From contig CM074695.1 in assembly GCA_037367355.1 (NCBI GenBank), positions 1,364,001 to 1,428,000 of the forward strand: a stretch of DNA of 64,000 nt. Reading direction: 5' to 3'. The notes beneath the pieces are model-generated. The model was not told the DNA's origin. It searched no databases and saw nothing but the letters and a program-made list of their open reading frames with translations. The stretch is from Neoscytalidium dimidiatum. Its lineage: Eukaryota > Ascomycota > Dothideomycetes > Botryosphaeriales > Botryosphaeriaceae. Each line of letters opens with the position of its first letter. The first letter of the stretch is position 1. Below, one piece after another: positions 17,801 to 45,652 of this stretch. The position numbers and the translations under genes were made by a program.

Positions 17801-20800
17801 CCTTCGTACTGGGTGCGGAACCTGGTGTCGTCCGTCAACTTCACCGGGGGCGTGCAGGCAATGCTGCAGAGCGCAAGGGAGGGAGATGACGGCTCCTCTG
17901 GCGCGCCTTTCGTCGACGCCTTCGTCGAGGTTGGGCCGCACTCGGCGCTGAAGACGTACCTAGCCGAGATCTGCGCGGGAGAGAGCGCGCCGCTCAGCAT
18001 CCCCTACACGACGCTGCTGCGGCGCAAGACCGACGCCGTCGAGACGCTCATGACGGCCATGGGCGAGCTGTGGTGCCTGGGCGCCGACGTCGACCTCGCG
18101 CGCGTCAACCTGGCCGACCCCGGCGCCAGGATGCTCACCGACCTGCCGCCCTACCCCTTCAACCACTCCTCCTCATACTGGGCCGAGTCGGCCCTCACGC
18201 GCCAGTACCGCTTCCGCGAGCACCCGCGGTCCGACCACCTCGGCGTGCGGTTCGCCGGCGCGGTGACGCCACAGTGGAGGAACTTCCTCAAGCTGCGCGA
18301 AAACCCATGGCTGGAGCATAGCAAGGTAAGCTGATAGACTGTAACCCGCAAAGAGGGAGAAGAGGTAGTAGGCAGACATGGCCGGAGGCTGACTGAAGAT
18401 GTATAGGTCAATTCGGAAATCGTGTACCCGCGCGCCGGATTCGTGGTGATGGGTAAGTCGAAGCAGCCCCCTTGGACGGCGGCATGATATTAGGAAGACC
18501 GAATAACTGACGGACACGTGAATCTCTCCAGCCATCGAAGCCATGCAGCAGCTCGCCGACCTCAACGAGGAGCCCATCGTGGCCTTTGAGCTGCGCGACA
18601 TCGCCTTCTCCGCCACCGAGCTGCGCATCCCCTCCGAAGACCGCAGCGTCGAGGTCATGACGCAGGTGCAGCCCCCCTCTTCAAAGGCAACCGCCAGCAG
18701 CAGCAGCTCCTGGGCCGACTTCACCATCGTCTCGCGCTCCGCCGCAGACGAAGACTGGCAGCCTCAATGCCACGGCAAGATCCGCGCCGTCCGCTCGTCC
18801 GCGCTGAACACCCCTACCGCGCAGACCGAAGCCCGCTGGGAGCACAAGCGGCTGGCGGAGGCGCACAACGGCGCGCTTACCGCCTGCACGCGGCCCTTCC
18901 CGGCCTTCTACGAAGCCTTGGCCACCTCAGGGGCTGCCAGCAGTCGCGAGTACGGCCCCGTCTTCCGCAGCCTGCGCGGCGTGCACCTGGGAGATGGGTG
19001 CGGGCGCGCCATCGCGCGTGTGCCGGACACCGCGAGCACGATGCCGCACGGCTTCGAGTACGGTGCAAGAATAATCCATCCGGCGGCTCTAGACGCGTTG
19101 CTTGCGCAGATGCTGGCGCCCGCGCTGATGAGGCCCGGGGACGCGCTCGCGGACATGCTGCCTGCAGCGCCGGTGGCCGTGGACCGGCTGTACGTTGCGG
19201 CGGAAGCTGGGGTCGGGAGCCCGGGTAAGGAGTTCGATGTCTTCTCCAAGGCGGAGAGAGAGGCGGGACGGAAGGTGTCCGTGTACGCGCTGCAGGCGGC
19301 GTCGCCCGTGCCGGCCGTCATCGTGGAGGGCGTACGGGTTGAGGTCAATGGGCGCAAGGAGGAGGGGGAGGCTGGTGGGAGCAGCAGCAGCCTCTGCCTC
19401 AAGACGGCCTGGCGCGAGGATGTCGACCTCCTCACGGCGCCGCAGGCGACGCGCGCAATCCTCGAGCGTGCTGAGCCCGACGCCTTTGATGGCGCGCACT
19501 ACGCCATGCTTGACCTGGTTGCCCTGCCATACATCCGCGATGCCGTCGAATGGCTCGCGCGCGATGGCAAGCCGTACGAGGTGCCCGAGGAGGCCGACTT
19601 CCTCCGGCTCTTCCACGCGTGGATGGTCGACAAGCTGCGCGAGAAGGCGGCGCTGGAGGCAGATCTGGCGACTCTGCAGGCGCGGGCGGACGCTGCTGTG
19701 GGCGAGCTGGTGAAGAGCGAGGCTGGCGTCGTCACGGTTGAGCTGATTCGTAGGGTCGGCGAGAATCTGCGCGGAATCATGACGAGGGAAGTCGAACCGT
19801 TGCAGGTGATGCTGGAGGGCGGGCTGCTGTACGAGTACTAGTAAGTCAGAAGACAAACGAAAAGGAAGTTGAGGGGAAAGGGTTTTTGAATACTCACCCA
19901 CACTCCTTGACTACCTCCTCCCTCTCCCTCATTGGACAATTTTATACTGACAGACCTCACTCTCCAGCCGCGTCGGCCTCGGCACCAGTTTCAACAGCAA
20001 CGTCGCCGAATACATGGGCCTCCTCGCGCACAAGGGCGCCGGGCAGCTGCGCATCCTCGAGGTCGGCGGCGGCACGGGCGGCACGACGCGCCGCATCCTT
20101 GACGCCATCAGAGACGACACGGGCGTGTCCAAGGTCGCCAAATACGTCTTCACCGACGTCTCGCCCGGCTTCCTCGGCAACGCGGCGACCAACTTCGCGC
20201 GCGACGCGGCGGTGCTGGACTTCCGCACGCTCAACATCGAGGAGGACCCGCTGGCGCAGGGGTTCGAGGCGGAGAGCTTCGATGTGCTGGTTTGTGCCAA
20301 CGTGCTGCACGCGACGCACCGCATTCGAGACACGCTGCGGCGCTGCCGGGCGCTGCTGAAGCCGCGCGTGGGCAGGCTCGTGCTGGCCGAGCTGACCGAG
20401 AACCCCGTCTTCATGGGTCTGATGATGGGGCCCCTGCCAGGCTGGTGGTTGGGCGAGGAGGACGGCCGGCATGGTGGACCCATCATGACGGCGGCGGATT
20501 GGGACGCCGCGCTGAAGGACGCCGGCTTCACTGGGGTCGACCTGCATGTCCGCGGCGACAGGAATTCCGGAGAGGGCAGTCCCACGGCTTTGATCGTCTC
20601 GACGAGGGATGATGACGATGATGAGCAGCCCGCCGTCAAGAAGAGCGCGGTCTGCTTGCTGGTGGAGGATGGTTCGGAGGCCAAGGTATGCGCCGGAGCT
20701 CTCCAGTCTCTCCTTGCGGATCGCGGAGAGAAAGCGTCAATCCTGCCGTGGGCCACTTTGTCGCCGTCCGCCGTGCGTGGCTCCTACTGCGTCTGTCTCG

Positions 20801-23657
20801 TCGGATTGCAGAAGCCTTCCACAATCGACCTCTCAGCAGACGAGGTAGCCAAGGTCAATGACCTGCTCGCTAGCGCCGCAGCCGTGTGCTGGGTCACGAA
20901 AAACGGCTCACCACACCCCTTGACCAGCCTGATCACCGGCACCGCCCGGAGCGAAGGAGACAGCGATGCCAAAGAGGTCATCACCGTGAGCCTCGACCAA
21001 GTCAATGACACAGCAAGCGTCGACCGGCTGGCAGAGCTCGTCTTGCGCCACCAACTGAGCAACAACCAGACGCCCCACGACACCGAATACACCATCAGCC
21101 ACGGCATCGTGCGCATCCCACGCGTCACTGAGGCCGCTCCGCTGAACGGCGCGCTCGCCGCCGCGCAGAATAAGGCTGACGCGCAGCCCGTCGTCCTCTC
21201 CCAGACGACGGCACCCCTGACGCTGGCCATCGGCACGCCGGGCCAGCTCGACACGCTCCATTTCGTGCACGCCGACGCTTCTTACTCCTCGTCCACGCTG
21301 CCAGCGGGCTGGATCGAGATCGAGGTCGTCGCCGCGGGTGTCAACGCGCGGGACGTCGCCGTCGCGGCGGGCACGATCGAAGACCAGGACGGCGACGGCG
21401 CACTCGGCCTCGAGTGCAGCGGGACGGTCGCCCGCGTGGGCGATGGCGTGGCAACTTTCCGGAAGGGGGACCGCGTCGCGGCGCTCGCCCGCGGCGGCGC
21501 GCTGGCCAAGTACGTGAGGGTGCCCGCGGGCATGGCGCTGCCGCTGCCGCTGCGGGCCGGTCTTGCGTTCGAGGACGCGGCGGCTTTCGTCTTGGCGTAT
21601 GCCACTGCGTACCATGCGCTCGTGCAGGTCGCCAGGCTGCAGCGTGGCGAGAGCGTTCTCATCCATGCAGCGGCTGGGGCCGTTGGACAGGCGGCGATCG
21701 TGCTGGCGCAGAGGCGGGGCGCCGAGGTGTTCGTCACCGTGGGGTCGGAGGAGAAGAGGAGGCTGCTGGTGGAGGAGCACGGCGTGCCTGGAGATCGTGT
21801 ATTTGGCAGTCGCGATCAGGCGTTTGCCAAGGGCGTGGTGAGGATGACGGGTGGTAGGGGCGTCGGTAAGTGCACACAGGCTGATATGGAGAAATTGCAG
21901 CAGGGAGGGCTAACGCGGTTGCTTAGACGTCGTGCTTAACTCGCTGGCTGGGGAGTCGAGGAGGCTGTCGTGGCACTGTCTTTCGGATTTTGGCCGCTTC
22001 CTTGAAATAGGTGAGTGCTCTCCCTTTTTCTTTTATACGCCGTAACAATTTGGGCGTAGACTCACGAATTTCAAACAGGCGGCACAGAGGCCGGCCTCGA
22101 AGCACTGCCCTTGCTCAAGAACCGATCGTACATCGGCATCGACATGTACGAGCTCATCAAGAAACCGAATAAGGTTATAGCGTCCATCATGGACGGTGTA
22201 TCGGAGTTACTGCAAAGCGGCGCTGTCAAGGTTGCGAAGCCGTTATCCGTATACGGTGCCGGGTAAGTCCCAACTCGCCACGGAAATGCTGATAAGTGGA
22301 AAATAGGAAAGAAAGCTGACTCAAACCACCAGGAAAATCGAGACGGTCTTCGCTTACATGCGGACGGGCGAGCACATGGGCAAAACCGTCATCAAGATGT
22401 CAACGGACGATCAAGTCATGGTAAGCCGCAAACCCATCTCTGCTCATTAACGAGTTGCACAGAATCTCACCTTTTCAATAGTACACCCCGTCTCCTCCAC
22501 GCATTAACTTACATCAAGACGCAACATACGTTTTCGCTGGCAGCCTCGCCGGAGCCGACCGCGCACTGTCGCGTTGGCTGATCTCAAGAGGTGCGCGGCA
22601 GCTCGTCTTCCTGTCCGGCAGCGCCGCCAACCACAAGACCGACGAGGCATACGCACGTAGCCTCAGCGCCGAACACGATGGACTCCAGGCCGCCGCCATC
22701 ATCTGCGATGTCGCCGATAAGGCCTCTTTAAACAAAGCGCTCCAAAGCATCCAAGGGTCGCTCCCTCCCATCAAGGGAGTTATCGTCGGCGCAATGGTGA
22801 CGGAGGAGAATGAGGAGTCGCAGGCGCAGCCAGCCAAGCAGTTCAGTGCGGCTACCGCCCGCCAGATGCGCATCTCCTACAATCTGCATGACGCGCTGAG
22901 CGCTTCCGCACTCGATTTCTTCGTCCTGCTTTCCTCCGGCCATAGTGCCCCAGGACTGGCCGCCTTCCACGACGCCCTGGCTCAGCAGCAGAACCACAGC
23001 AGCGGTAGGACTCTCTCGGTCTCCCTTGGCCTGGTGGGCGACAACACCAACAGCGGCCTACGCGAAGCACCGCGCCTCCGCGACGTCGAGACGGCAATCG
23101 AAGCGGCGCTGTTGAGCGAGCAAAAGAGCAACAACGCCGCCGCCATCACCATCATCAGCCTCCCCGCAGCCTCCGCCTCCACCACCACTACCACCACCAC
23201 CCCTCTCCGCTCCCCCCGCCTCGGCGCCCTCCAGCGCCGCCTCGACCTCCTCGCCCACGCCTCCTCCACCACCGCCGCTAACGACGCCACCTCCGCCTCC
23301 ACCGAAACCCTCAGCGCGACCCTCACCCGCCTCGCCGTCAACCCACCACCTTCCTCTTCCTCCGACAACAACAACAACACCGACGACAGCACCACTTCCG
23401 CCGCGGCGTCCGTCGTGACGCAGCACCTGCGCGCGCGGCTGGCGCGCCTGATGCTCGTGCCGGCCGAGGAGGTGGACCCGCAGCGGCCGCTTGGCGCGTA
23501 CGGCGTCGACAGCCTGGTCGCGGCCGAGCTGCGCAACTGGCTGCGCGCCGAGACGGGCGTCGACGTCGGCGTCGCCCGCCTCACCGGCGCGGACGTGCCG
23601 ATCGCGCGGGTGGCGTGGGACGTCGCGCGGGAGAGGGCGAAGGGTAAGAAGGAGTGA
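14882..23657 (+). CDS. highly reducing type I polyketide synthase, KS-AT-DH-cMT-ER-KR-ACP
   Basis: Thirteen exons: 14882-15049, 15106-15250, 15317-15585, 15655-16190, 16290-16329, 16412-18325, 18407-18452, 18532-19840, 19968-21865, 21927-22010, 22079-22262, 22333-22420 and 22482-23657, about 2618 residues. KS has Cys173 in DTACSAS, EAHGTGT and [12 protein letters not shown] has GHSSGE (Ser689). DH has WLEHSKVNS near 1019-1027, with Ser where the catalytic His is expected, but keeps Asp1227. cMT has LEVGGGTGG near 1506. ER has HAAAGAVGQ near 2042. KR (about 2242-2400) has AGSLAGAD in place of GGLGGLG and lacks the Tyr block after LLSS (2378-2379). ACP has GVDSL (Ser2571). No thioesterase or reductase release domain is present. 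The KS-AT linker carries NGHTNG repeats and an Asp-rich run. Exons are GC-rich. KS, AT, cMT, ER and ACP look functional; KR and perhaps DH do not. Confidence 0.95.
16594..16719 (+). repeat. in-frame NGHTNG-type repeat in KS-AT linker
   Basis: Tandem 12-15 bp units such as AACGGCCATACG encode a run of NG(H/I)(T/N) units in the PKS linker. A second simple stretch of GAC codons at about 16842-16867 encodes an Asp run just downstream. Both lie between the KS and AT domains where length variation should be tolerated. Confidence 0.8.
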
Positions 23658-30392: not shown

Positions 30393-31823
30393 GGAGGCGA
30401 GTTCTGGAGCTGCAGGTTGCAGCAGACGATGGGAGGAGAATAGCATTTTGAGGCGCGCGCGCTGGCGCGGATGGTGTTTGGGAGGTGGAAACTGGGGCGG
30501 GCGGGCGCGGGCGGGCCACGGGCGCGATGGTTTGTTACAGGGTTTGTCTGAGCAGCGGGACACGGGGGCAGGCGCAGTCGAGGGGCGATGGGAGGCAGCG
30601 GATTCAGGCCGGTGAGGCGCGAGGCGGCGCGAATGAGTTTATAGGACGAGCTGGGCACGATAAGACGCGCGGCGGTGCAGGCGGGAATCAAGAATTACGG
30701 TGTCCGTCGAGTTGAGCTGTGCTGGGGCTTGGCGGGCGTGCGATTGCAGCGCTATCGCGTCAGGCAGTCTGGGCGTGCGCTCGCCGCAGCTGCCTCTGCA
30801 CCAGCACCAGCGCCAGCACCCTGTCCAGCACCCATGCGCCCACCGAAGACGCTAGAGGCCCCGGCCGCCGCCTTGGCAGGCATCCTGGCCCGCTGCAGCG
30901 CCACCCATCTGCCTGGGCCTCTGACGCCCACCCCTGCTGCCCACGCCCGCGACCGGCTGGATGCCGGCTGCTGGCTGCTGGCCCACCGCTACCGCTACCG
31001 CTACCGCTACCGCTACCACTGCCGCCACCGCGCCCGCGCCCGCCCCCGTGTCCGTGCCCGAGCCCGCGTCTGCGCCTGTGCCTGCGCCCGCGACCGAACG
31101 TGTCACGTGGGGCGCCGACTTCGATTGTCGCACGCTGCTGCGCGCTGTGGCGATCAATCAGTGGTGAGGCCCGGGAAGCTGCCAGGCTGCTGCTGCTCAG
31201 GCTGCTGCCAGGCTGCTGCTGCTGCTCTTTGACGCGCGATCCAAGGCACGCCCGCCAGGCCCGTCGCTGCGAGCTGTGAGACGAGACACAGCTGCGCTCG
31301 TCCGAACACGGTTCCCAGGCGCGCCCAAAAAAAAAAAAAAAAAACCTGCTGTCTCTCCGGCTGCGCTGTCCTCGCGCGACACACCGGCGACAGCTGCCCG
31401 GGCCCAGTTGCCTGCCGCCCGCTGCCCGCTGCCAGCTGCCAGCTGCCAGAGCCAGACGCCAACCGCCAGCCGCCAGCGCGCTGACTGACTGCCGAAGCCA
31501 GTGCTCAGCTCCGCGCGCTCGCTTCGCGCCCGGTGTTGCGTCGTCGCTGCAAGTCCCCACGCCGCCGCTCTCCACTCTGTAACACCACCTCCCGCTGGCT
31601 ACGTCACGCCTGGCTCACCTCTCCCAGTCCTTCCCTTCGCACCGCCACACTCCACCACCCGCTCCAGACCGTCGCGACAGTCTTCCTCCCTCGCCTCCCC
31701 CCCTCTCTCCCCACGCGCTCCCTCGGCGAATCTCTTACCCGCCCATCCCTCGCCGCGAAACAAGCCCTTCGCCGCCCCGCCAATTGCTGCCGGCCTGCCT
31801 GCCGCCGCCTGAAGACAATCGCA
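30393..31823. other. GC-rich divergent promoter and long Pbs2 leader
   Basis: 1.4 kb between the AEC transporter and Pbs2. It holds a CCGCTA hexamer repeat at about 30985-31018, followed by CCN-rich sequence, CTGCCAGCTGCC-type repeats near 31180-31450 and an A18 run at 31327-31344. Long open frames on both strands here are products of GC-rich simple sequence. Confidence 0.5.
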
Positions 31824-33960
31824 ATGGCCGCCTCAACCCCCGATGAGGACCAGCTCTCCGATGCCTCCTCGCCGCTCGAGTCGCCCTCGAGCCCCGATCT
31901 CCCCTCGCCCTCCTCTCCGTCCGGCCAGCCGCCCGTGGGCCGCTCCGTGTCGACCGCCCCCATCACCTCCGGTATGACGGCCTCGTCGACGCCCTTGGGC
32001 ACGCTCAATGCTGCTCGCCGACCCGCTCCAAAGGCTCCGACTCTCTCGAGCCGCGGCAGCGGCCCCAGTCTACCGCAAGACATCATGAACCGCGTAAACG
32101 CCCTGCATCTGGCCAGACGGGGTGCTCCGCCCCCCAATCCCATGCGGCAAACCCCAGGCGCTCCTGCGCCCACCGCCGCCCGGAACCCAATGCCTCAATC
32201 CCCTGGCGGAGCGTTCGTGGGGGGCGTTCCCAAGAACTTCCCGCTGCCTGGCCAGCCTGGCAAGCCGGCAATAGGCCACTTCCCCTCCGCTCCTGCTGTG
32301 CCGAGTCTCCACGGCCCCAGTGGTGTCAAGAAGCCTTCACTGGCAGAAAAGCGGGGCTTGGCCCTGCCCGGTGGTCTCCCGGGCTCTCAACCAAACGGTA
32401 CACCGGGTCCAGCCCCGGGTGGAAGGAAGAAGCCGGGCCTGAAGTTGTCAGATATCAACGGCCCGCCAGGTGGAGATGCAGGTGGTCAAAATGCTGGAGC
32501 GCAGCCCAACGGCGGCTCGATGATGGATAAATATGCCGAGTTTCTGGACAAGGAAACGGGGAGTTTGCGGTTTGCGGGCAAAGCCGTCCTGACCAGCACA
32601 GGCGTCGACTTTGAGAGTGGATCTTCGTTTAGGATATCTCTTGACGAGGTGGATACTCTGGACGAGCTTGGCAAGGGCAACTATGGCACGGTGTACAAGG
32701 TCCGGCACGCTCGGCCGCAGATGAGGCGACCAGGTCTTGGTCTGGCGGGAAACAAAGCCCACTCCATGCCCGTCGTCCCTGGATCGCCAGCGAACAAGAC
32801 CGATGGTGCCGCTGACTCGAGCCCGACATCCGCCAAGGCTACCGGGGGTACTACGAACGTAGTCATGGCCATGAAAGAGATCCGTTTGGAGTTGGATGAT
32901 GCCAAGTTTGCAGCCATCATCATGGAACTCGACATCCTACACCGTTGTGTTTCACCTTACATAATCGACTTCTATGGAGCTTTCTTTCAAGAGGGCGCGG
33001 TCTACATCTGCATGGAGTTTATGGACGGAGGATCAATAGACAAACTGTACGGAGACGGCATTCCTGAGAACGTACTGAGAAAAATCACGCTGGCCACGAC
33101 AATGGGCCTCAAGTCGTTGAAGGACGATCACAACATCATCCACCGCGATGTGAAGCCAACCAACATCCTGATCAACACGAAGGGACAGGTCAAGATTTGC
33201 GACTTTGGTGTCAGTGGCAACCTGGTTGCTAGTATAGCCAAGACAAACATTGGTTGCCAGAGCTACATGGCCCCTGAAAGAATTTCGAATGGAGGCATAG
33301 CACAGGCTGGTGCCAACCCGGGTGGTGGCACGTACAGTGTGCAGAGCGACATCTGGAGTCTAGGATTGACAATCATCGAATGCGCCATGGGCCGATACCC
33401 CTACCCGCCTGAGACTTACAACAACATCTTCAGCCAGCTGAGTGTAAGTCTCCTTTTTTCCTTTTTTTTTCCACGCTATTTTTCCTTTTCGGTGACGGAC
33501 GTCATGCAATCTGGAACAGCTAATGACGTCAAACCAGGCAATCGTCGACGGCGAACCTCCGGATCTCCCCGCCGATGGCTTTTCCGAGGCCGCGCGGAAC
33601 TTCGTTCGCGGATGTCTCAACAAGATTCCTAATCTCCGCCCCACATACGCCATGCTTCTTCAACATGCTTGGCTGGCACCCCTCCTTAAGCCCGCAACTA
33701 TCAGCGAAGAGGAAGAAGAAAGCGAAGACGCTTCTTCGGCTTCCAGCCTCACCGTTGACTATACCGGCCCTGAAGCTCCCGAGGACCCAGAAGTTGCCCA
33801 GTGGGTGCTTGACGCGCTAGAGAAGAAGAGGACCGGCAAGTTGGCACAAAGCCTGAAGCCCGCATTGCATGCAGCGCCTTTGGACGCAGTCTCGAGCCCT
33901 CAGGGCACTCCGTCGGCAACGCCCGACGCGCCTCCACCGCCTCCCGCCGAGGAGGAATAA
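31824..33960 (+). CDS. PBS2: MAP kinase kinase of the HOG osmostress pathway
   Basis: Exons 31824-33443 and 33538-33960, with intron 33444-33537, give 680 residues. A Pro/Ser-rich N-terminal half precedes the kinase domain (about 300-590). The domain shows GKGNYGTVYK, the ATP Lys351 in VVMAMKEIRL, HRDVKPTN (Asp442), DFG and APERI. The activation loop reads SIAKTNIGCQSYMAPERI, with phosphosites Ser470 and Thr474 as in yeast Pbs2 (S-x-A-K-T). A 50-residue insertion between the Gly-loop and the ATP Lys is normal for filamentous fungal Pbs2. The kinase passes signals from Ste11/Ssk2-type MAPKKKs to Hog1. ATG 31824 has a good context (GCAATGG); the frame stays open upstream to 31533 but that part is low-complexity leader. 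The C-terminus is acidic and Pro-rich. Confidence 0.97.
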
Positions 33961-35435
33961 GCATTATGTACGATTTTTTGTCTGTTTTGAGATACGAAGA
34001 GAAAAGCGAAGACGATCATTTTCACGCACTGGATTTTATTTCAACCCCTTCCCTTTCTCGCCTGGGGCGAAAAGGAGTTTTACTTTGAACCACGAGCAAC
34101 AATGAATTTTGTTTTCTTTTTCTCCGACAGGGCACAAGAGTTTCGGGATGTTCGGTTAGTTCTCGAGATGGGAATGCTTGCAGCTTATGTGGCCTAACGC
34201 AATGGGATGGGTATGGACGATCAGGATGGCATGGACTGGGATGGGATAGCGGGTCAAACACGACGGTCTGTGAGTGGGCGTGATGTGTTTCTTCTATCTC
34301 ATAGCGGAACCGGACTACCTTATTTCTCTATCCCTATATCTCTCTATCTCCTTTGCGAGGCTCACCTATCTATCTCTTCTTACCCCACTCCTATCTCCAC
34401 ATATCGCTTCCTTACCTATCTTCCATCTGTGCGCATAGACTGCCTCGCTCTAGCGCAGATTCAACCTGTAGTCCTCAATCACGCAGCCTCACGAGACTTT
34501 GTGTCCTTTTACGTGTTTACGAATATTTGCGAAAGCTTTCATTTCATTTTCTCGTTTCATATGAGCAGGAGAAACATATATGCATGGGATGCGTTTTCTT
34601 GAGGGCGGATTGTTTGAACGTACGGAGCGCCAAGCAGCAATGGAACAGGCGAAAGGTCTCTCAAATCTTGTAGTAGAGCAACTTTGATTCTTAATACGGC
34701 TCAATCCCGAATGAAGACGAGTTCGACCAGTCCACCGGGCGGCGCCTTCGAATCTCGTTTCTCGTCATGCAGTCCCTGCGGGCGGTGTTTTCGTCCCACA
34801 CCAACATCTTGCACCAAAATTTCAACCGAATCCGTATCACGTTCTCTGCATCTGCCGTTGTTAAGTTGACCATGACGGAGCCTCTCCTCCCTTATACCTG
34901 AACCCGCAAGCTGCGACGTTATCTCGCTGGGGTAGGGAGTGTCATCCGACCGGCCCTTCGCGGCGCGCGCTCTCTTCCGCCGTGTGCGCGCGTGTGTGTA
35001 CGCTGATGAGAGATGATGCGACGACGCTATGACCGCGCGCGTCCAGCTGGGAAGTGGGATGCAACGCCGCAATTACGGCAACTTCCTGCTCTCTCTCTCT
35101 CCCTCTCTCTCTTTCTTTCTCTCCATCTCTCTCTCTCCCTCCCTCCCTCCCTCCCTCCCTCAAATCTCCCCATGCCTGCGTGACTCTCCCCTCACGAACC
35201 AACGCACGATCCGCCCTCCCCGCCATCGCCATCATCATCGACCCACCGGCCAACCGTCGAGCGGGATGGGCCGGCGCGGAAGCACGGAAAACAGGCATCA
35301 TCTCGCGCCCGATCGGCCACTTGCGTACCGTCGTGCGACCCGTGCGATGATGGGATGGGACATTGATTTGGGAGAGGGGAGGAGGGGGAATGATACAGAG
35401 AAGGGAGAAGAGTGTGTGCGATGCGGTACGCCCGC

Positions 35436-35473
<38 letters not shown>

Positions 35474-35663
35474 AGCCCTACGCGCGCACGCACGTACGCA
35501 CGCACGCACGCGCCGTCATCTCACTTTTTCTCAACGTACGTTGCGAGCCCAAGCCTTTTTTTTTTTTTTTGGTCAGACGCTGCTTGCTATCTTCCTTTCT
35601 CGCACGTATATAGATGGTAAGAGCTCTTAGTCGCCGTGACCAGGCCGGCCGGAGCCAGCCGTT
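33961..35663. other. Pbs2 3' flank with CT microsatellites
   Basis: No gene. TCTATC-rich sequence occurs near 34310-34410. CT-rich tracts lie at about 35089-35160 and 35440-35475, GCAC repeats at about 35485-35513 and a T15 run at 35556-35570. It leads into the interspersed-repeat array. Confidence 0.5.
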
Positions 35664-38600
35664 CAGACGTTCGATGTTGTTTCGTTTTCTACAGTACGCG
35701 GTCCCGTAATTGCGACGTGCCACTTAGTTTTTTTTTTTTTTTTTCTCTTTGCGGAGGTCGCCTGTCCGGAACGTTTGTTTTGGTGGTAGGGGCGCGGCGG
35801 AAGATGCCTCGCAGACGTTGGAAGGAGGTTCGGAAGGTGCCTACCGACGTTCGAGGGTGGAAACGGGCACGGGTGTGGGGTGGGGGCTGCGCCTTGCAGG
35901 GCGAGCGGTTGGGGACGGAAGGTGCCTTTCAGACGTTTGAGGACGGATGGGAAGAGGCGGAGGTGGCCGTGATATGGAGTGAGATCGGGATTGTGGGGGA
36001 GTGGGTCGGGGATTGGCGTTGTGGTGCGGTGTATCCTCTCTCTTCTTGCAGCCGGAAGATGCCTTTCAGACGTCGGAGGTTGGGGGTTGGCTGTTACTGT
36101 TCGTTGTTGACTATGCCGCACGTTTGTTTTCTTGTTTTTTTTTTTCTGGGCGACCACGTGGATGCCTTCTGGAAACAATAGGTCAGTGGTGGCGTCCTTT
36201 GGACACACGCGCTGGTCCGAAACGGTGGAGGGTTACCAGACCAGAGGAGACGGAGAGTTGTGGTTCGTGGCATGCGGTGTATCGCGGTGGGAGGCGGCTT
36301 TACTGGGCGCAGAGGAGCGGTAGGAATGCGTGGCTTATTCCTGCTTCCTCCGCCTTCAGGGACAAGGCTTGTTTGCGGAGGACGAGCGACGGGATCAGTG
36401 TTCTGTTCCAAGAAAGCGTTGCGACCACGTGAGCAGCGGGAAGAGAGGAACCGTGGGAGTTTGGGGCGTCACTTTTGGTACGCATGGTGTGCAGGAATAC
36501 CGCCGAGAGAGGAATCCGACGTTCGAAGTTGTTTCACGCTCGCGAGGAGGAATTGGCGTTTGGCGCGTAAGATTTCTACGTGGGGAAAGTGTCCGGATGT
36601 CCTTTTCGCTTTTTCGTTGGTAAGCTACGGTGCTGGCGCCTGGCTGGTTTTCTTGGGTCCTCCTTTCGTCGTCTCTCCAAACCATCCCCCCTCTGCTCCT
36701 TCGGTCCGCTAACGCAACGGAACCGTTTTCCACACCGCGTGCCTAGGCATAGGGCTTGGTCCGGCCCACCGGAGTCGCGGATGTTGCTCCGTTGACGAAC
36801 GACTGGTTACCTGCAGTGGTTGAGCCGTGTTCACTGCTGCTCAGCTCTTCTCCGCAGGCGAGGAAGTCATCGTCTTTCAGCGCAGCGCGGGAACGCCTCG
36901 CGCATGGAGCGGTAGTGCGTTTTGGCAGGGCCGCCCCAACCGCGAGAACAGTTAAACCTGAGGTATTTGCATTAACGCCGCACTGACCAGCTATACGGGA
37001 TGCAAGATACTTCTACTCTTTCATGGCTGGGCTGCGAGGCGGCTACGGTCCGTCACTGCCGAGCTGCGCTACTTGATGGCGGCCTACAGAGGTGGGGGGG
37101 CGTGGTGGCGTCGTTGGTCTCTTGTTCTGGACCCATGCGTAAGAGAGATCTTCGAGTAGCCACCTTATCATCCGCTGTCGGCAGGATCCTTTCAGACGTT
37201 CGATGCTACAGTGTTGCTTAAAGGCTCTAGGGATCGTGGAGAGTCCAGTGGTCTCGCCTTGATGGACCAAGGGCTATAGACTATCGAAGCGTGGTCGCGG
37301 TTTGAGAATACGACGTCTTTACGAAGATCTCTACATTGATTTCTCCGGAGCACCCAGGTTGTGATAGTCGTAGCGGTGCTATTTTTGGAGGCGATGCAAG
37401 AAGACGTCTGGAGAAAACTTCGGGGCTCGGTGAAAGAGAGTCTTGGTTTGACTGAAGTCTGGTCGATCCAATGGCGGCGGCAAACCTTGCCTCCATCATG
37501 CATTGAGCACGAGCAGGGGTGGAACGACGTTCGAAGTTGTCAAGGGTTATGAAGATCCTACGCCTCGTCCCTCGGAAAGTCGTTAGTTGGTGTCACTGTC
37601 TGGGCTGAAAGATGCATAGTGTGCCTGGCACAGAACGGGAGGAGATCGAAGGAATATTTCAGACGTTCAAACATGTAATTAGTCAAAGTCAAAGCTGTAC
37701 TGTACAGTGTTTGGAGCAGCTGGTAGCGCTGAAATGGCAGCACAGGCCGGTGTTGGTTTCTCAATGAAGTAATAGTCACGGCTGTACTTGAAAGCGTTCT
37801 CCCGAAGGATCTCTTCCGACGTTCAAGGTTGCGAGCCAAGGCAGGTATCTCAGAATTTTAGCTTTCCTGGACACCCCAATTGTGGGAACCATGCTGCAAC
37901 GCACATGATCGTAGCCGAGAGGCCGGTAGCTCACTCTCAACCCGCGGGCACGGAAGGATTTCTCCGGGCGTTCGAAGTTATACTCAGGGAAGAACCCAAG
38001 AAACCTGCATGTGGGTAGGGCCCGAACCGCTGATGGATCTTAGACGGGCCTGTAAGAATCCCAGTACATTGCCAGAACCGGTAATACTTGCGGCCGTACT
38101 CCCGGCCGCTGAAGGTCCGAAGGATTTTTTCAGACGTCCGAAGCAAAAGAACCTGCACCCACTGTATTTCAAAGCTTTACGGAACACACAAGCCCAATGA
38201 CACGAGGCCTAGGTGGTAGGCAGGCAAGGCGCACCACTGCTGTCCCTCAAATCCGCCGAAGGAATCCCTCAGGCGTTGGAAGTTGTGTGAAAAACGCCGA
38301 GTTTTAGAGGCCGGGACAAAGAGCAAAGAACAGAGGAAGCCCCCTGCATCTTTGTAAAGCCAGGGAACGATGTTTCTCTGGGCGTGTCGTGCAGCTACAA
38401 GGTTGCAGGGTCGGGGCCAAAGCGTGCTGGCCAATGCCCGAATAGGAAAATGCAAGGGTATGTCGACGTTCGAAGTTGTCGAAGCAGAGGTGAACCGTGT
38501 GGCCTGCGCACTCCTACTGATGGCGGTATTCCGCAGCGGTACGGCCGCAAAGGAGATCCAAATTCCCTAAGCGTTTTCCCCATGTAGTAGTCCCTTGCGG

Positions 38601-41600
38601 CGAAACAAATAACCCCGGAGGATTTCCCCGACACCGCGACACCTCGAATTTGAGTTGTTGGAAGAACCATAATCTGCTGCCATATGGTGAAGAATAGACG
38701 GCGCGCCATTTGAAGGCAGAAGAGCACTACTCAGGCACGCCAACGAGGACCGAAGGCTTTGTGGGGTTGGTGCGTGAGGTGGCTACCTGACGTGGCGGTA
38801 AGTCTTGACGGACAACCCAGCTTGGTCCCCCTGAAGGATTCCTTCAGACGTTCGACGTTGCCATAGTGTTATCGTGACTTTTGCTTTTTCCGGCCCTGCA
38901 AGGCGGGAGAAAGGCTAAAAGGGTGCTGGGAACAGGATCCTGCAGATCTTAGAGCTTACCCTGGGGAGCAGCTTTTCCTCCCAGGAAATGCCCGATGGAG
39001 TAATGGTCTCGGAGCACTTAATCTGATATGCGTGCAAGGATTCTTCGCGACGTCCGAAGTTGTGCAATATAGAGTGTGCAACAGTGAGGCGAAAGCCAAG
39101 TACACCACCTGTCTCAAACGAGTGGCGGGGATGCCGAGGCTTGCACGTCCAGCAACGTAGCCATTGCTGCAGCAGTCAGTCGGAAGGACCCTTTCAGACG
39201 TTCAATGTTGCCTCCTCTGCGCTACGCCAGGAAGCCAACGACAGCCAGATTGCGCCGCCAAAGCAAGAAAGTCCACAACGGCGTCGGGTTCGAGAGGTGT
39301 GGTGTGAGCCTCGTAGAAAACCTCGGCGCCATTGTGGATCTCGGCGGCCGGAATGAGCCTTCAGACGTTTGAACGTGTTGTGATTACAGCGATTCGCATG
39401 TAGCTACATCTCCGCTCGTTATTGAGGACTAGGTTTGTTAGCAGGGTCGAGAACACGATGCACTCGCCCATAGCGTTGTCCGGGGGGAATGGGGGATCCA
39501 CAGTAGCGTCTGTACTCATAGAATGAAGCACGGGAGCCTGCTGAAAGCAGTTAAAACAAAAGGCACTACAGATAGACTTGCCTTAAGCAGGATGATATCG
39601 TTGTGCAGAAGAACACAGTGGTCCGCCAGCCACTGGCCCCGGGTGACATCAAAGGATTTTTTCAGACGTCGGAAGGTCGTCTCATAACCTAGAGATTATT
39701 GGCAAAGACGGACTATGTTGCTAATGTGGAGGCCTGGTAAGTGCTAAAAGACCCTTGGTTGTCCGGCAAAGCTCGTGCCCCTCGCACCGTCGAGTTGTCT
39801 TCCAGCGGCACAGAGGTGGAAGGATCCTTTCCTACGTTCGAACGTGACTGAAACAAAGAAAGAAACCAAGTGGTTCTGAGAGCCTTGCGAACGCATGTCA
39901 AGAGCGGCAGCCAAGTCTGGAACGGAACGCCGGTTGCCGTCCAAGACGTCGGAGCAACCCGTCAGCCAAGGCGCCTCAACAGCAACCACTATCTTTTCGG
40001 CCGCCGCCACGCATGTGTCTTCCAGCCTCCTGTGTAGCAGACGCCCGTAGATGGTCTGCTGCCGAGCTCCGTGGTTCTCACGGGAACTGCTTCAGGAACG
40101 CTGCGAAGGTGGCGTCTCCAGCTGGGACACTATTGCATTACCCGGTTCCGGAACGGAGCGACGTTTGCCGTCCCATGGCCCACAAGTGTTCGCGCGACCA
40201 CAAAACAGAATGACCAGGGCCTGACTTTTCCTACGTTCAAAGTTGCTCGGAGGGAGATCCATGAAGTAACAGGTTCCGAATTCAGCACTCGGAGTAAAAA
40301 TGGATTGCCTTGCTTGCCCGACTTCCATCAACCTCAATATCTGAACAGTAATCAAAGATTGTTCGAATTCAAAAATGCCTTATTCCTCGAACACATAGGT
40401 TTTCAGGGCCAGGCTCTGAGCTTCCAGAGTACAGGCCGGCTTTCAAACCCGGATGATAGCGTTGCAGCCTAAGGACCGTCAGCGTCGTCTTCTAATGGGC
40501 AAAGCTGTCTCCGACCATAATAGTATCGTCACATGGAAGGATTATTTCCTACGTTCAATGTTCTTGTACACTTATCTTAGCAAAACTGACAGAGCATCGG
40601 CTCGGACCTGCATGCAGGCCGAGCAGAAGGCCAATGCTCTACCAGTGCCACGGCCCCGGCTACCTTCGTACAACCACGTCGTTCCGGTGTTCTGGGAAGG
40701 ATTTTTCCCTACGTTCGATCTTCGTGCTCGAGCCATATCGACAAGGCAAAACAAGTACCCATCTAGAATTAGGCTACTCAGGCGGCGTGGTCAAAAAGGT
40801 CCAGTCCGCGTAGTTCACTTTTGTACAAGCGGCATTGCTCCGATACCCGCGAAGGATTGTTTCCTACGTTTGAGGGTATTTCGACGTGAGAAACGCTAAA
40901 TAAGCTGAAGAATATCCAAGGCAGCGTGCAGGAAGACTATCGGAAGTGATAGTTCTGGCCTTGTGGCGGGGATGAATTACTAACGGTCAGCCACAAGGCT
41001 ACGGAGCCTGCGAAAACCAGGACAGGATTTTCACCTACGTTCGATATTGCGTGCTCTTCTTAACACTTGTTTTACGGCCCATCACTGGAACCTGAGGAAC
41101 TCCAGGCAAGAGATCAAGGACCGGAAGACTTCACAGGTGGAGAGATGGTTCTGACAGTAGTTCTCACCGGAAATCTACTGGAAGGCTGTACCGAGCGGCC
41201 AGCTCTACTTAGAGCATCAAAAACGTGACACTCTCACTCTAAGTCCAGAGGACATAATCGCTATTTTTCTCAGAACGTACAAGTAAGCGAGACGCATAAC
41301 CTCTGAAGGATTTTTCCCTGCGTTCGAAGTTGACAGCAATGGAGAGGCCAGAACACCTCAGACGTGCTTAAAGCAGTCCGAGGTAGTAGATAAAGGAACT
41401 CTGCAGTCGATCTCTGTCAGCCACCACGTAAGAGCGCATGGAAGGATCCTTTGCTACGTTCGAAGATACTCACAATAGAACCAACCAAGAAACAACCAGA
41501 GTTTCCCATCACGAGAACCCGCCGCCTCACCGGCTGGGTGCAATGTGCATCCACCGGACCCTTCTCCGCAGCCACCTCGCATCGAGGGCGCTGGAAGGAT

Positions 41601-42034
41601 CCATTCCTACGTTGGAAGTTGTGCTCTGCCAAAACCTCCAGTCCACCTTAGCATGCACCAGAAAGAGAGCCGCGCAGACCAGCTTCGCCAGGGGAACAAC
41701 GGACCACGCGTTCGTCCGTCAGCCTCGACGCAATGGCGCAGCGGAAGGATCCTTTGCTACGTCTGAAGATGACAAGGCCTGGCCTCACCTACGCAAGCCG
41801 TCAGAATCGCCGTAGGTCTGTGAGCGGCATCCACTATTCGCCTCTTGAACGGACGTTCGGCAAAGAGGGTTCAAATCAGCGTGTTCGAGAACACGAATAA
41901 GGATGCGTGAGGACCGGATGACGATGATGCTGACGAACCGTCCGGCGCCACGCAAACACACGCAACGCACATACATTCCTCCCAACACGTGTAGAACGGA
42001 AAACAGAAAGGATTTCTTGCGACGTCTGAGGACG
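35664..42034 (+). repeat. array of about 31 directly oriented, spaced copies of a motif of about 28 bp
   Basis: Consensus block GAAGGATYYTTTC is followed directly by MKACGTTCGAAGTTG. Positions of the ACGT-like core: 35667, 35814, 35847, 35933, 36070, 36519, 37196, 37527, 37663, 37819, 37968, 38134, 38273, 38466, 38638, 38848, 39050, 39198, 39365, 39666, 39834, 40233, 40551, 40711, 40866, 41037, 41320, 41456, 41609, 41759 and 42022. All copies have the same orientation. About half of the intervals are 135-170 bp and several others are near twice that; weak extra copies are visible at about 36568, 39917, 40148 and 40358. Spacers do not resemble each other to the eye. No reading frame spans the array, so it is not a coding repeat. 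It might be a non-coding transcript with a repeated element, an array of protein-binding sites, or a decayed tandem repeat in which only this block is kept. Variant types are ordered along the array. Confidence 0.85.
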
Positions 42035-43401
42035 ATGACCAGCGTACCAACAATCGCCCCAAAAAAAAAAATAAAAGCCCTCGTCTCAAACCCTGCCACT
42101 CCTCCCACGGTAAAAAACCCGTAGTGCCTTCCGAACAAAAGAGATGAAGAGTAGGACACTTACGGCCGTCGCGTTCCTGTTGCGGTAATCCCGCCCTCCG
42201 CCGTGGCGCCGGCAGGATTCCAGAGCACCGAGCCCGCGGCCGCTCACCCCCGTCGCCCAGAACCGCATCCCTTAGCGTCGTCATCATCATCAGCAGCAGC
42301 AGCAGCAGCAGAGCAGCCGACCGCCGGCGCCGGGCGGCGGTTGCCCTCTCTTACTAAGCGCATCTCTCCTATAGTAGCGCGAACCATATAACGTACGGCA
42401 CGCCGGAGGGTGAAGGGAGAGGAGAAACGCCCGCGCAGCAAGCCACTCAAAAAAAAAAAAAAAAGGGAAGCGGGAGGCAGAGATTCCAAGAAATACGCCA
42501 CGCCTAACGACACGCAACGCCCGAAACGAACCGCGGTTTAGCAACTCATCTTTTCTTCTTTTTATGGGGGCGGTTCGCGCACGTTCCGAACGGGATACGC
42601 ATGCCTAAACGGGAAATGCGCGAGAATAGAGTAGAAGGCGAGCTCCCTTCCCCCCCCGCTTACCTTAGTGTACCTGAAAACGAATGAATTCATACCCAGA
42701 ACGGAGTTCTCGGAACGGATCCGAACCTCCAGGCTACTACGTGCGTGGCTCCTGTCCCCTTTGGTTTCCTGCTTTCGGAAGTGCCGTTAGCTGTGCACAG
42801 CGGCGGCGGCGGGCACCTCTCCCGCCGGAGTTGACACCAAAAAAAAGGCTGGGCGGTCTGCCTGCCATTTGGTGGCGGCGTGTTGCACGTCACCCACTCG
42901 CACATGGGCGGCGTTGTGCGTCTGGACCGTTCGATGGGCCAAGGGGGCGTCAACCACCAGCGTCAGAGTAGTGCTGACCGTGCATCAAATAAGTGGACTG
43001 CTGCCCGCCGCGACACTTGACTCTGGCGTGCACATACACCCACAGGCCACTATTCGATGACCGGCCAAGCTGAAAAGAGAGGGAGAGAGATCCAAATTCG
43101 CATTAGAGTGCCTTTCAAAGAAGGGAATATTCCGCTACTAACATCTCTGCCCGATTTCTGTACAGTGGATTTTTGGAGATCGAAGGAGAGAAAAACACCG
43201 CTCGAGCCCCCCAGGGTGAATCAAAATGGGCGGCCCTCGAGAGGAAAAGGGAACGCGCAACAAGAAGAGAATGAAACCCACTTAAAGAGCAGAGCACAGC
43301 AGAGCACAGCAGAGCAGCAGCCTTTCTTTGCCTCGTAAAACGCCTAACCAATGCATACCAATCATACACTTTAAAAAAGGCCGCGGCTCTAGATCTCTCC
43401 A
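42035..43401. other. intergenic right of the array
   Basis: No gene. AGC repeats at about 42290-42313, an A16 run at 42449-42464, a CAGAGCA repeat at about 43280-43320, and the 3' flank of Sec63. The spaced motif is not found after 42034. Confidence 0.45.
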
Positions 43402-45652
43402 CTACTCCTCGTCGGTGTCGGTGTCGGTGTCGGTTTCGCTGGTATCAGACTCTTCGTCTCCCTCAGTGTCGCTTCCGCTGGACTCCTCAACCTTACGAGC
43501 CTTGGGCTTCTTCGTCTCACCACCCTTCATGGCAGCCATCTGTCCTGCAATGGTATCTGCATTCTCATTAGCCATGTTCTAGGAGATGTTTTCATATCGT
43601 GTAAACTCACCCTCATCCGGCTCGCTAATGTCCTCTTCCTCCTCAATCTCCGCTGCCTTCGAAGGGTGATCAACGACAAGAGTCACATCCATCTTGGTAT
43701 CCATGCCAACGTAGCTGTCACACACAAGGTGCATTGTGAACTTGTATTGGCCGGGCTGGGGTGGGGCACCGAACTGCATCTTGAGAGTCTGGACGTTGTA
43801 GGTAGGGTTGCCCTGTTCGTCGAACAGCGGCTTGTCGAACTTGGTGAACGTGAACGGAGGAACTGCAATCTTGCCTTGCCTGCTGTCGGCGAGGAAGACA
43901 TGCCATCTCGGGGAATGATCCCTGGGGAAGTACGGAGCGTAGGCAAGCGGAGGCTGCCCTGCGATTTCAGCCTTCTTGGCCTCCTCGGCCTCGACTCCCT
44001 TCTTGCGGCCGTGCAAAGCATCCAGGTCTCCCTCCTTGGGATCAACATCCTCAAGATCCTTTTCGCTGACCGGGGGAACGTTGGTGGAGCCAGGAGGAAT
44101 GACACGAGCCTTAACGACGAACTGGACCAAGCTGCTAGGAATGATAACCTTCTCACCCAAAACCTTGAAGAAAGCCTTTTCGACCCGCAGATGCGGGAGC
44201 TGACGAGCAACTTTCTCAGCTGTAGCATACTCGCTCTCTGAAAGAAGGCCAGGACCAGTTGCGCGCTTTCGCCTCTCCTCAGCCGGCAGATTCATAAATT
44301 CCAAAACACTCATGTGGACCCGGGCGCTCTCACCCTCGACTGCGCGGACAACGGCTGGAGTGAAACCGGGGAGCTGAAGAAGAGGCGAAGATTTCGGAGG
44401 AATGGCCTGGAGAATGTTCTGGGAGGTGTGGTAGGATGACAGGAGAGGCTGGGTGTTACCGTATGCAAGGGCAACGGCGAAGAAGGCATCATTCAGCTTA
44501 TGAGCAATAGGCGCAACTTCAAACTTTTCGGCGTTCAATGTTTGGTCCTCAAGCTCTACGCGTCCGAGATAGGCCCAAAGCAGAGCCAGAGCCTTCCTGC
44601 GCGCGCCTTCATCGAGCTCCTCCAAAGTCTGACGGTCCTTGATGCTGAGGCCGCCGGCAAGAGGTGACAGCTCACCCTCTTGGAAAAGCTTCGACTCGAT
44701 CTTGGAAAGGCCAGCTTCTGCCTTACTTCCCTTGAATGTCTCTTCAAATTCAGTTCCAGTGCTGAGGGCCGAGAGAACACCACCCTCGCTGAGATCCGGC
44801 TTGTATTCCTTGAAGATGTTTCCGGCACTCGAAACCAAGACCTTCTCTTTGGTAACACGCTGTGTGCCGTACCACCATTTGCCCACTAGGTATGGCAGGA
44901 CAACACCGAGGACGATTCCGTAACCCAGCAAAACATATCTCCCATGGCCCTCGGTAACAATCCACTTCGGCAAGGCGATGCCGATGCTGAAGCTTTGCTT
45001 CCCGTCCGGGTGACCGTATTGCAGGTAGTTGTTGCGAACCTCCTCGTCCGTGAGCGCCTTGAAGGCCTTGGTGTATTCGACCCATTGCTCATTGATGGCT
45101 TCGATAGTCAGGTTCTTCGAGGGATCGGGCTGGGCTTTGTCGGGATGGTGTTTGAGGGAGAGCTTGCGGTAATGCGACTTAATTTCCTTTTCTGATGCGG
45201 ACTGGATGTCATCAGTATTCTAATTTTCCCGTATGGACTGCGCAGACCTACCTTAGAGACATCAAGAACCTCGTAGGGGTCCCAGATCTTGGGGACTGTT
45301 CGCGCAGTCACGATCATCAGGTAGACCATCCAGGCCATGACCAGCCAGCCACCCAAGGCAAACAGAAACTTTCCTAGCTTGCGCTCCTGGCGGCGCAATT
45401 TCTTGCGCTGGCCATCAATGAGGTCGACATGTTCGGGCGTGAAGTCAGACTGTATTCTCGGAGCCGTGTTCTCAAGGTCCTTGCTGCGGGTAAGCAGCGA
45501 GATGGTGACCGGAATAGTCACCAGGCCGGTGATAGTAACGACGAAGTAGGGGAAGAATTGTCCCTGGCAGAGCAGTCAGTCGGGTGGGCGTTGTGCGGAG
45601 GCGGGGCGCGAACGGCGCGTACCTGTTCGTCATAGTTGTAATCGGTGGACAT
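43402..45652 (-). CDS. SEC63: ER translocation protein Sec63, DnaJ-domain subunit
   Basis: Four exons: 45623-45652, 45252-45563, 43611-45201 and 43402-43556, giving 695 residues. The first exon holds only ten codons and the last, behind a 54-nt intron, carries the acidic tail of GSDTEGDEESDTSE type. Membrane segments lie near residues 12-34, 72-94 and 190-215. A J domain between the second and third has HPD at 133-135, followed by two Sec63/Brl domains and a C-terminal acidic region. Sec63 is a membrane partner of the Sec61 channel and recruits the lumenal Hsp70 (BiP/Kar2) for post-translational import. Length and order match fungal orthologues. Confidence 0.96.

Follow-up and report, generated by a model that had tools for sequence, protein, structure and literature searches.

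A two-box motif repeated 30 times in a gene-free gap of Neoscytalidium dimidiatum: candidate protein-binding sites with a genome-wide right half

Intergenic DNA in fungi tends to be short, with little conservation. On contig CM074695.1 (here C1) of Neoscytalidium dimidiatum (assembly GCA_037367355.1), a gap of 9.4 kb between a PBS2-like gene and SEC63 holds an array of short motif copies in one orientation, and the question raised by this locus is what the copies are and what reads them. The window examined is the whole stretch of 64,000 nucleotides at C1:1,364,001-1,428,000, within a genome of 43.76 Mb in 40 contigs; coordinates without a contig prefix are those of the window. In our assessment, there is about an even chance that the array is a set of approximately 30 bipartite sites for one or more putative sequence-specific DNA-binding proteins, derived from amplified sites, kept by selection and forming a multi-site platform. 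Neither the motif nor arrays of this kind were found described in the open-access literature, as judged by titles and the beginnings of abstracts. Occurrences of a right-box 12-mer in four papers of that literature look like chance.

Anatomy of the window array

With an iterated weight matrix, 28 copies were located, all on the plus strand (matrix starts 35,649-42,004). A search for the right box with up to 2 mismatches added two copies with a perfect right half and no left half, at 37,526 and 38,465, giving 30 same-orientation copies over 35651-42034 (+). The array and its single orientation, as described in the earlier note, were thus confirmed, and the count of about 31 became 30. Outside 35,000-43,000, the matrix built from the 28 copies found nothing above 8 bits on either strand, and the single weak minus-strand match inside the array region scored 10.4 bits at 41,420.

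Each full motif is 29 bp long and consists of GGAAGGATYYTTTC, a two-base linker and ACGTTCGAAGTTG; the left box of the window array is GAAGGATYYTTTC and the right box is MKACGTTCGAAGTTG. All 30 copies are invariant at CGT and at the A after TTCG. The linker changes along the array, from AG in 12, CG in 6 and GG in 1 of the first 19 copies to CT in 10 and CG in 1 of the last 11. Among the 27 regular-expression matches in the window, 21 share one left-to-right box length and 6 differ. The edges of conservation are sharp: matrix offsets 2-30 stand out, the flanking columns average near the random value of 0.35, and no downstream flank column exceeds 0.43, with six upstream flank columns reaching 0.50-0.54 (99th percentile, 0.50). 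The single unit of about 28 bp proposed in the earlier note is replaced by two boxes in 29 bp, of which the right one is genome-wide; the full motif is nearly confined to this array.

All copies are on the plus strand and come from the weight matrix unless stated otherwise. The first five lie at 35651-35679, 35799-35827, 35831-35859, 35917-35945 and 36054-36082, the third following the second at a spacing of only 32 bp and overlapping the weak right end of its neighbourhood. Copy 6 (36503-36531; matrix start 36,501) is also a right-box-only copy, with a perfect right box and a left box mismatched at 9 of 13 positions. Copy 7 (37180-37208) is followed by copy 8 (37511-37539), which came from the right-box search, and copies 9 to 13 occupy 37647-37675, 37803-37831, 37952-37980, 38118-38146 and 38257-38285. 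The other copy from the right-box search, copy 14, lies at 38450-38478. Copies 15 to 20 follow at 38832-38860, 39034-39062, 39182-39210, 39349-39377, 39650-39678 and 39818-39846, and copies 21 to 25 at 40217-40245, 40535-40563, 40695-40723, 40850-40878 and 41021-41049. The last five are found at 41304-41332, 41440-41468, 41593-41621, 41743-41771 and 42006-42034.

The spacing departs from random placement. Although the gaps range from 32 to 677 bp, 16 of the 29 fall at 130-175 bp versus 3.0 expected, a number reached in none of 20,000 random placements; the preferred value is about 150 bp and several gaps are near twice 150. The spacers themselves have hardly anything in common, with a mean local score of 15.97 for spacer pairs versus 15.65 for shuffles. 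Only 2 of 378 pairs exceed the 99.9th percentile (0.4 expected), and the best of them holds T tracts. One 54-bp match at 70% extends some 25 bp beyond the motif. Whole-unit homology, as in an ordinary tandem satellite, is accordingly not seen in the window array, where spacers score close to shuffles. The judgement of the earlier note that the spacers look unrelated is borne out apart from these 2 pairs, and the refuting case that it named, spacers proving homologous in a full-unit alignment, did not arise. A 27-bp spacer repeat outside the motif (39916-39942 and 40147-40173, 85% identity, 231 bp apart) is a possible relic of local duplication.

It could be argued that the array is an old satellite that has decayed and does nothing, with the boxes as its leftovers. 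The modal spacing near 150 bp agrees with this, and so does a sister array on C3 in the form of a 141-bp tandem repeat. However, spacer similarity has been lost while 29 bp keep sharp edges, half-decayed copies are no commoner in the gaps than chance would give (2 weak matches versus 1.2 expected, beyond the two right-box-only copies), and the right box recurs at 28 sites elsewhere that obey the same rule in their flanks, as presented below. A functionless relic is on these grounds improbable. The exclusion of an ordinary satellite in the earlier note consequently stands as far as the spacers are concerned, which are not detectably homologous, but does not extend to the origin of the array, which may have been a satellite like that on C3.

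A common right box and array-specific left boxes

The right box is not restricted to the window. Its exact 13-mer has 49 matches in the genome versus 1 for the reversed pattern, the degenerate form MKACGTYBRARGTTG has 97 versus 14, and SMKACGTTCGAAGTTG with at most 1 mismatch has 104 versus 17. By these matches, at least 7 further clusters contain the right box, and so do 28 sites outside them, most of these non-coding. The census of arrays was compiled from pattern listings and selected stretches, a procedure that arrays with drifted right boxes would escape.

The 28 single sites are the exact matches outside the listed clusters and outside a pair at C3:1705-1706k. For three of them (C5:3711713, C6:270901 and C10:1704946), a further box lies less than 1 kb away. 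In 27 of the 28, the 13-mer is preceded by two bases that fit the M,K rule, even though this rule was absent from the search pattern, and T stands five bases before the 13-mer in 19. On both strands, the isolated sites follow the same rules as the array copies. By codon score, 21 sites are non-coding, 5 mixed and 2 coding-like, which is close to the expectation for DNA that is entirely non-coding, given that 13% of 90-mers from non-coding DNA and 76% of those from coding DNA pass the threshold. Of nine single sites viewed with 10 kb of context, several appear by eye to lie inside multi-kilobase gaps like those of the arrays. The site of the array thus recurs as single copies elsewhere and, by the codon score, outside genes, as would be looked for in an array of transcription-factor sites.

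The left box behaves differently. The window left-box pattern AAGGATNNNTYNNKACGTY, which catches 13 of the 30 window copies, has 14 matches in the genome, of which 13 are inside the window array and the other is on C12. The possibility, raised as a refutation in the earlier note, that the motif is equally frequent at random positions across the genome is contradicted by this count. Other clusters have the right box without the window left box, and two further array types with their own left box, CGANTC and CACGGCCG, were recognized. CGANTC is the left box of 12 copies on one strand at C7:1985-1989k and of 5 copies at C1:1177-1179k. Its C, G, A, T and C do not vary in 15 aligned copies from the two arrays. 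At C2:875-877k, ACGGCCG is exact in 8 of 11 listed copies, has one mismatch in 1 and is absent in 2. Between the left box and ACG lie 6-8 bp in 17 copies of the CGANTC type, compared with 10-12 bp in 9 matches of the C2 array.

The left boxes of the smaller clusters were described by eye. A left box like GGANTCGAYTCC is present in part of the copies at C9:1952-1956k, C1:4466k and C1:3667k; GCCAAGCAACC is found in two copies at C1:1171-1172k, and CACTTCTATTGACT in five units, one with a change, at C3:3628k. Since CGANTC is shared by two arrays and, by eye, turns up in portions of further ones, not every left box is strictly private. With regard to orientation, the listed copies point one way in the C2, C7, C3:3628k, C1:3667k and C1:4466k arrays and both ways in the clusters at C1:1170-1179k, C9 and C8:2368k. 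A pair of perfect right boxes at C1:1175.8k (L010:2789-2829) is arranged head to head, with 11 bp between them.

The C3:3628k array (stretch L016:4143-4823) is a right-box tandem satellite: five tandem units of 141-142 bp, which align along their full length with 75-83% match, carry the same right box and adjoin a phosphoenolpyruvate carboxykinase gene. It is apparently younger than the window array. The comparison suggests that arrays begin as satellites whose spacers decay. In the same stretch, a 135-bp direct repeat of 99% identity (L016:3368-3634) lies within an open stretch that matches M35 deuterolysin in part.

DNA sites, RNA modules or chromosome addresses

How the array may have arisen and what it may do can be put together as follows. 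The right box MKACGTTCGAAGTTG would be read by a common factor wherever it is present in the genome, and the left box, GAAGGATYYTTTC in the window and different from one array to another, by a second module or partner. A single site would have been amplified as a short tandem satellite with units of about 75-150 bp, giving an array; its spacers would then have decayed, whereas selection for overall strength of binding would have preserved both boxes. The result would probably be a platform of many sites, serving chromatin or regulation, within a long gap free of genes. If this is true, a universal half joined to a private half provides a rare and directly testable handle on place-marking in a compact genome, and the arrays would show, in a single genome, several stages of decay in the conversion of satellites to binding platforms.

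If two contacts add up in binding, left and right mismatches should trade off, and a weak trade-off is observed: the Spearman correlation of the two counts over the 30 copies is -0.39 (one-sided permutation p 0.017), and the right box is perfect in 3 of 3 copies without a left box and in 0 of 27 others. Together with the single sites and the mixed orientation of several clusters, this trade-off favours a site in DNA, recognised either by one protein through two contact surfaces or by a pair of partners. Similarity between copies of the window array also declines with distance (Mantel p 0.0006), with p values by part of 0.0002 for the linker, 0.027 for the left box and 0.67 for the right box. 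Local duplication of copies is on this pattern likely, if weakly shown.

Several results weigh against binding sites in DNA kept by selection. The trade-off is modest, and it is only suggestive because 2 of the 3 right-box-only copies were found through the right-box search. The likeness of neighbours stems mostly from a linker of 3 columns (p 0.066 for all columns without it), which is why local duplication is weakly shown. Once 2 mismatches are permitted, enrichment of the 13-mer is no longer seen (1052 matches versus 1372 for the reversed control), so that weak matches mean nothing alone. In a six-frame test, an open frame spans 301 bp at 16 of the 28 single sites, no lower than the control fractions of 0.47-0.52; the non-coding bias thus depends on the codon score, whose non-coding reference is the window array. 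In the C3 satellite, conservation of the boxes does not stand out from that of the remaining unit, as judged by eye. Finally, the uniform orientation in the window would fit an RNA element as well.

Such an RNA element is the most probable of the other explanations. The array would be the body of an unspliced long non-coding RNA of about 6.4 kb, transcribed from left to right, and the motif an RNA module bound by an RNA-binding protein, with the transcript acting as sponge or scaffold. All 30 copies are on one strand, and the listed copies of the C2, C7, C3:3628k, C1:4466k and C1:3667k arrays are likewise single-oriented. The array is moreover bracketed by suitable words on the plus strand: a pyrimidine tract (35082-35161), the top score in the window on either strand and a possible promoter feature; TATAWA (35607-35612), about 40 bp before copy 1 and a possible TATA box; and AATAAA (42070-42075), about 36 bp after the last copy and a possible polyadenylation signal. 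TATAWA and AATAAA each have less than 1% chance within a given 60 bp, a figure calculated after the words had been seen. However, no such bracket was found at other arrays (seven clusters examined), the mixed orientation at C1:1170-1179k, C9 and C8:2368k argues for a DNA site, and isolated sites obey the same rules on both strands. Column-pair statistics, including those for the left-box hairpin, gave no nested Watson-Crick covariation; the 30 units had no folding excess (mean z +0.19 and -0.15, control -0.15); and the 10 Rfam matches on the array were all far below gathering scores, none of them on the motif. An array of structured non-coding RNAs was rejected by the same three analyses, in which no conserved or unusually stable fold appeared. 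A long non-coding RNA is on balance a doubtful, though real, alternative. Of the two objects of selection on the motif that the earlier note had offered, a binding site fits best, whereas the RNA element is left with a suggestive TATA and AATAAA bracket and no RNA structure. Both could be true at once in a transcribed platform. A comparable case is meiRNA of Schizosaccharomyces pombe, which has many Mmi1-binding DSR motifs. The likeness lies in a putative long transcript in which a single short motif is repeated throughout; in contrast to meiRNA, the motif here is 29 bp rather than a hexamer, and sister clusters are in mixed orientation.

Small RNAs driven by each copy would be the expectation if the boxes were promoter elements of the RNA polymerase III or small nuclear RNA (snRNA) type, such as transfer RNA (tRNA) B-box-like GTTCGA, TFIIIC sites or snRNA promoter boxes. 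GTTCGA does resemble the B-box core, and a U2 snRNA (C1:1181426-1181616, minus strand) and a U1-like match (C1:1182579-1182727, plus strand), about 1 kb from each other, lie 2.5-3.6 kb from the C1:1170-1179k cluster, which is the richest in perfect right boxes. In tRNA B-boxes the GTTC core is invariant, whereas the base matching its C is only 64% conserved in the window; there is no tRNA gene at 33-44 kb of the window and no Rfam gene in the array. A tRNA B-box or TFIIIC site was rejected on this basis. The genome has 2 U4 matches and 6 U1-like matches, none of the U1-like ones reaching the Rfam cut-off. Both U4 matches and the 5 remaining U1-like ones are at least 49 kb from every listed box, and an association with snRNA genes, for which one U1-like match of these eight lies near a box cluster, was rejected as well. 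At gathering scores, non-coding RNA near boxes amounts to one U2 and three tRNAs (27 sources). Promoter elements of this type are very improbable.

The distribution of boxes could also point to an element at the level of the chromosome, such as a centromeric core, a meiotic pairing centre or a replication-fork barrier, with array-specific addresses. At least 2 boxes within a few kb are present on each of C1-C10, the array-specific left boxes resemble address labels, and several arrays have uniform polarity. Yet C1 has at least 4 clusters and, among the matches listed, there is no cluster on C11 or C12; the arrays sit among ordinary genes, their neighbours including those for phosphoenolpyruvate carboxykinase, a SWIRM protein and a tRNA synthetase of class II. 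When 40 open stretches flanking boxes were compared with Pfam, 20 matched and no common theme of function was seen by eye. A chromosome-level element of this kind is improbable. Somewhat less improbable, though still unlikely, is a modular address code, in which a box common to the genome and a private array-specific box, repeated as many as tens of times at near-nucleosomal spacing in gene-free gaps, would let each locus be read by a common protein together with a locus-specific partner, for chromosome organisation or pairing. In Caenorhabditis elegans, meiotic pairing centres are short-motif arrays read by the ZIM and HIM-8 zinc-finger proteins. They are similar in having spaced arrays of short motifs with variants for different places; unlike them, the arrays here can number several on one chromosome, and each joins a common and a specific half.

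By analogy, the nearest known situation for the putative binding sites is the CENP-B box in unrelated satellites. Conserved motifs of the CENP-B-box type are reported from satellites of the nematode Meloidogyne (PMC3694981). Human alpha satellite and the Meloidogyne satellites resemble the present arrays in that a short box is common to repeats that otherwise differ. The right box differs from the CENP-B box in being another sequence, in occurring also at isolated sites, in having an array-specific second half and, in the window, in lying among decayed spacers. The CENP-B box consensus is NTTCGNNNNANNCGGGN, and on both strands of 35,601-42,100 there are 0 matches to NTTCGNNNNANNCGGGN, by which this candidate was rejected. 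In a search for helix-turn-helix domains of the CENP-B/pogo type, two HTH_Tnp_Tc5 matches were found on C2, with no link to the box.

Among known sites of single proteins, that of the yeast general regulatory factor Abf1, RTCRYNNNNNACG, is similar in being bipartite, with a short linker and an end in ACG. The form TCRYNNNNNACG fits 5 of 15 copies of the CGANTC type but none of the 30 in the window, and was rejected as a description of the motif. A search of the genome for the Abf1 family found nothing and was silent in the control genomes too; since all controls were silent, Abf1 may still be the protein concerned.

Neighbouring genes and the gap

The left neighbour of the array (31533-33960, plus strand; start from the mechanical list of open reading frames, stop from the translated last exon) is a predicted MAP kinase kinase, which we take, by eye and like the earlier note, to be PBS2. 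The right neighbour is SEC63 (43401-45566, minus strand; extent from the tblastn span and a stop read from the translation, start approximate). Along roughly 95% of the query, it is 94% identical to the SEC63 of Macrophomina phaseolina and 92% identical to that of Diplodia intermedia, which places the fungus in or near the Botryosphaeriaceae. The two genes are convergent, and the gap of 9.4 kb that holds the array extends from the end of the PBS2-like stop at 33,960 to the end of the SEC63 frame near 43,400. Codon scoring gave no coding signal in this gap, on a scale whose non-coding reference came from the same gap and which is thus partly circular. No reading frame crosses the array, the longest overlapping listed frames being 181, 181 and 150 amino acids, so that the gene-free stretch and the exclusion of a coding repeat reported earlier are upheld. 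A DNA search for copies of the whole array elsewhere returned only the self-match, with common words skipped by the search.

Several minor features were also seen. The left edge of the array (35601-36800) is keto-rich (G+T), and its right edge (41201-42800) is amino-rich (A+C). In another stretch, an imperfect palindrome of about 100 bp (L012:8926-9024) has 78% identity to its own reverse complement. At 16337-23657 of the window, open frames resemble pieces of a highly reducing polyketide synthase, as judged by eye.

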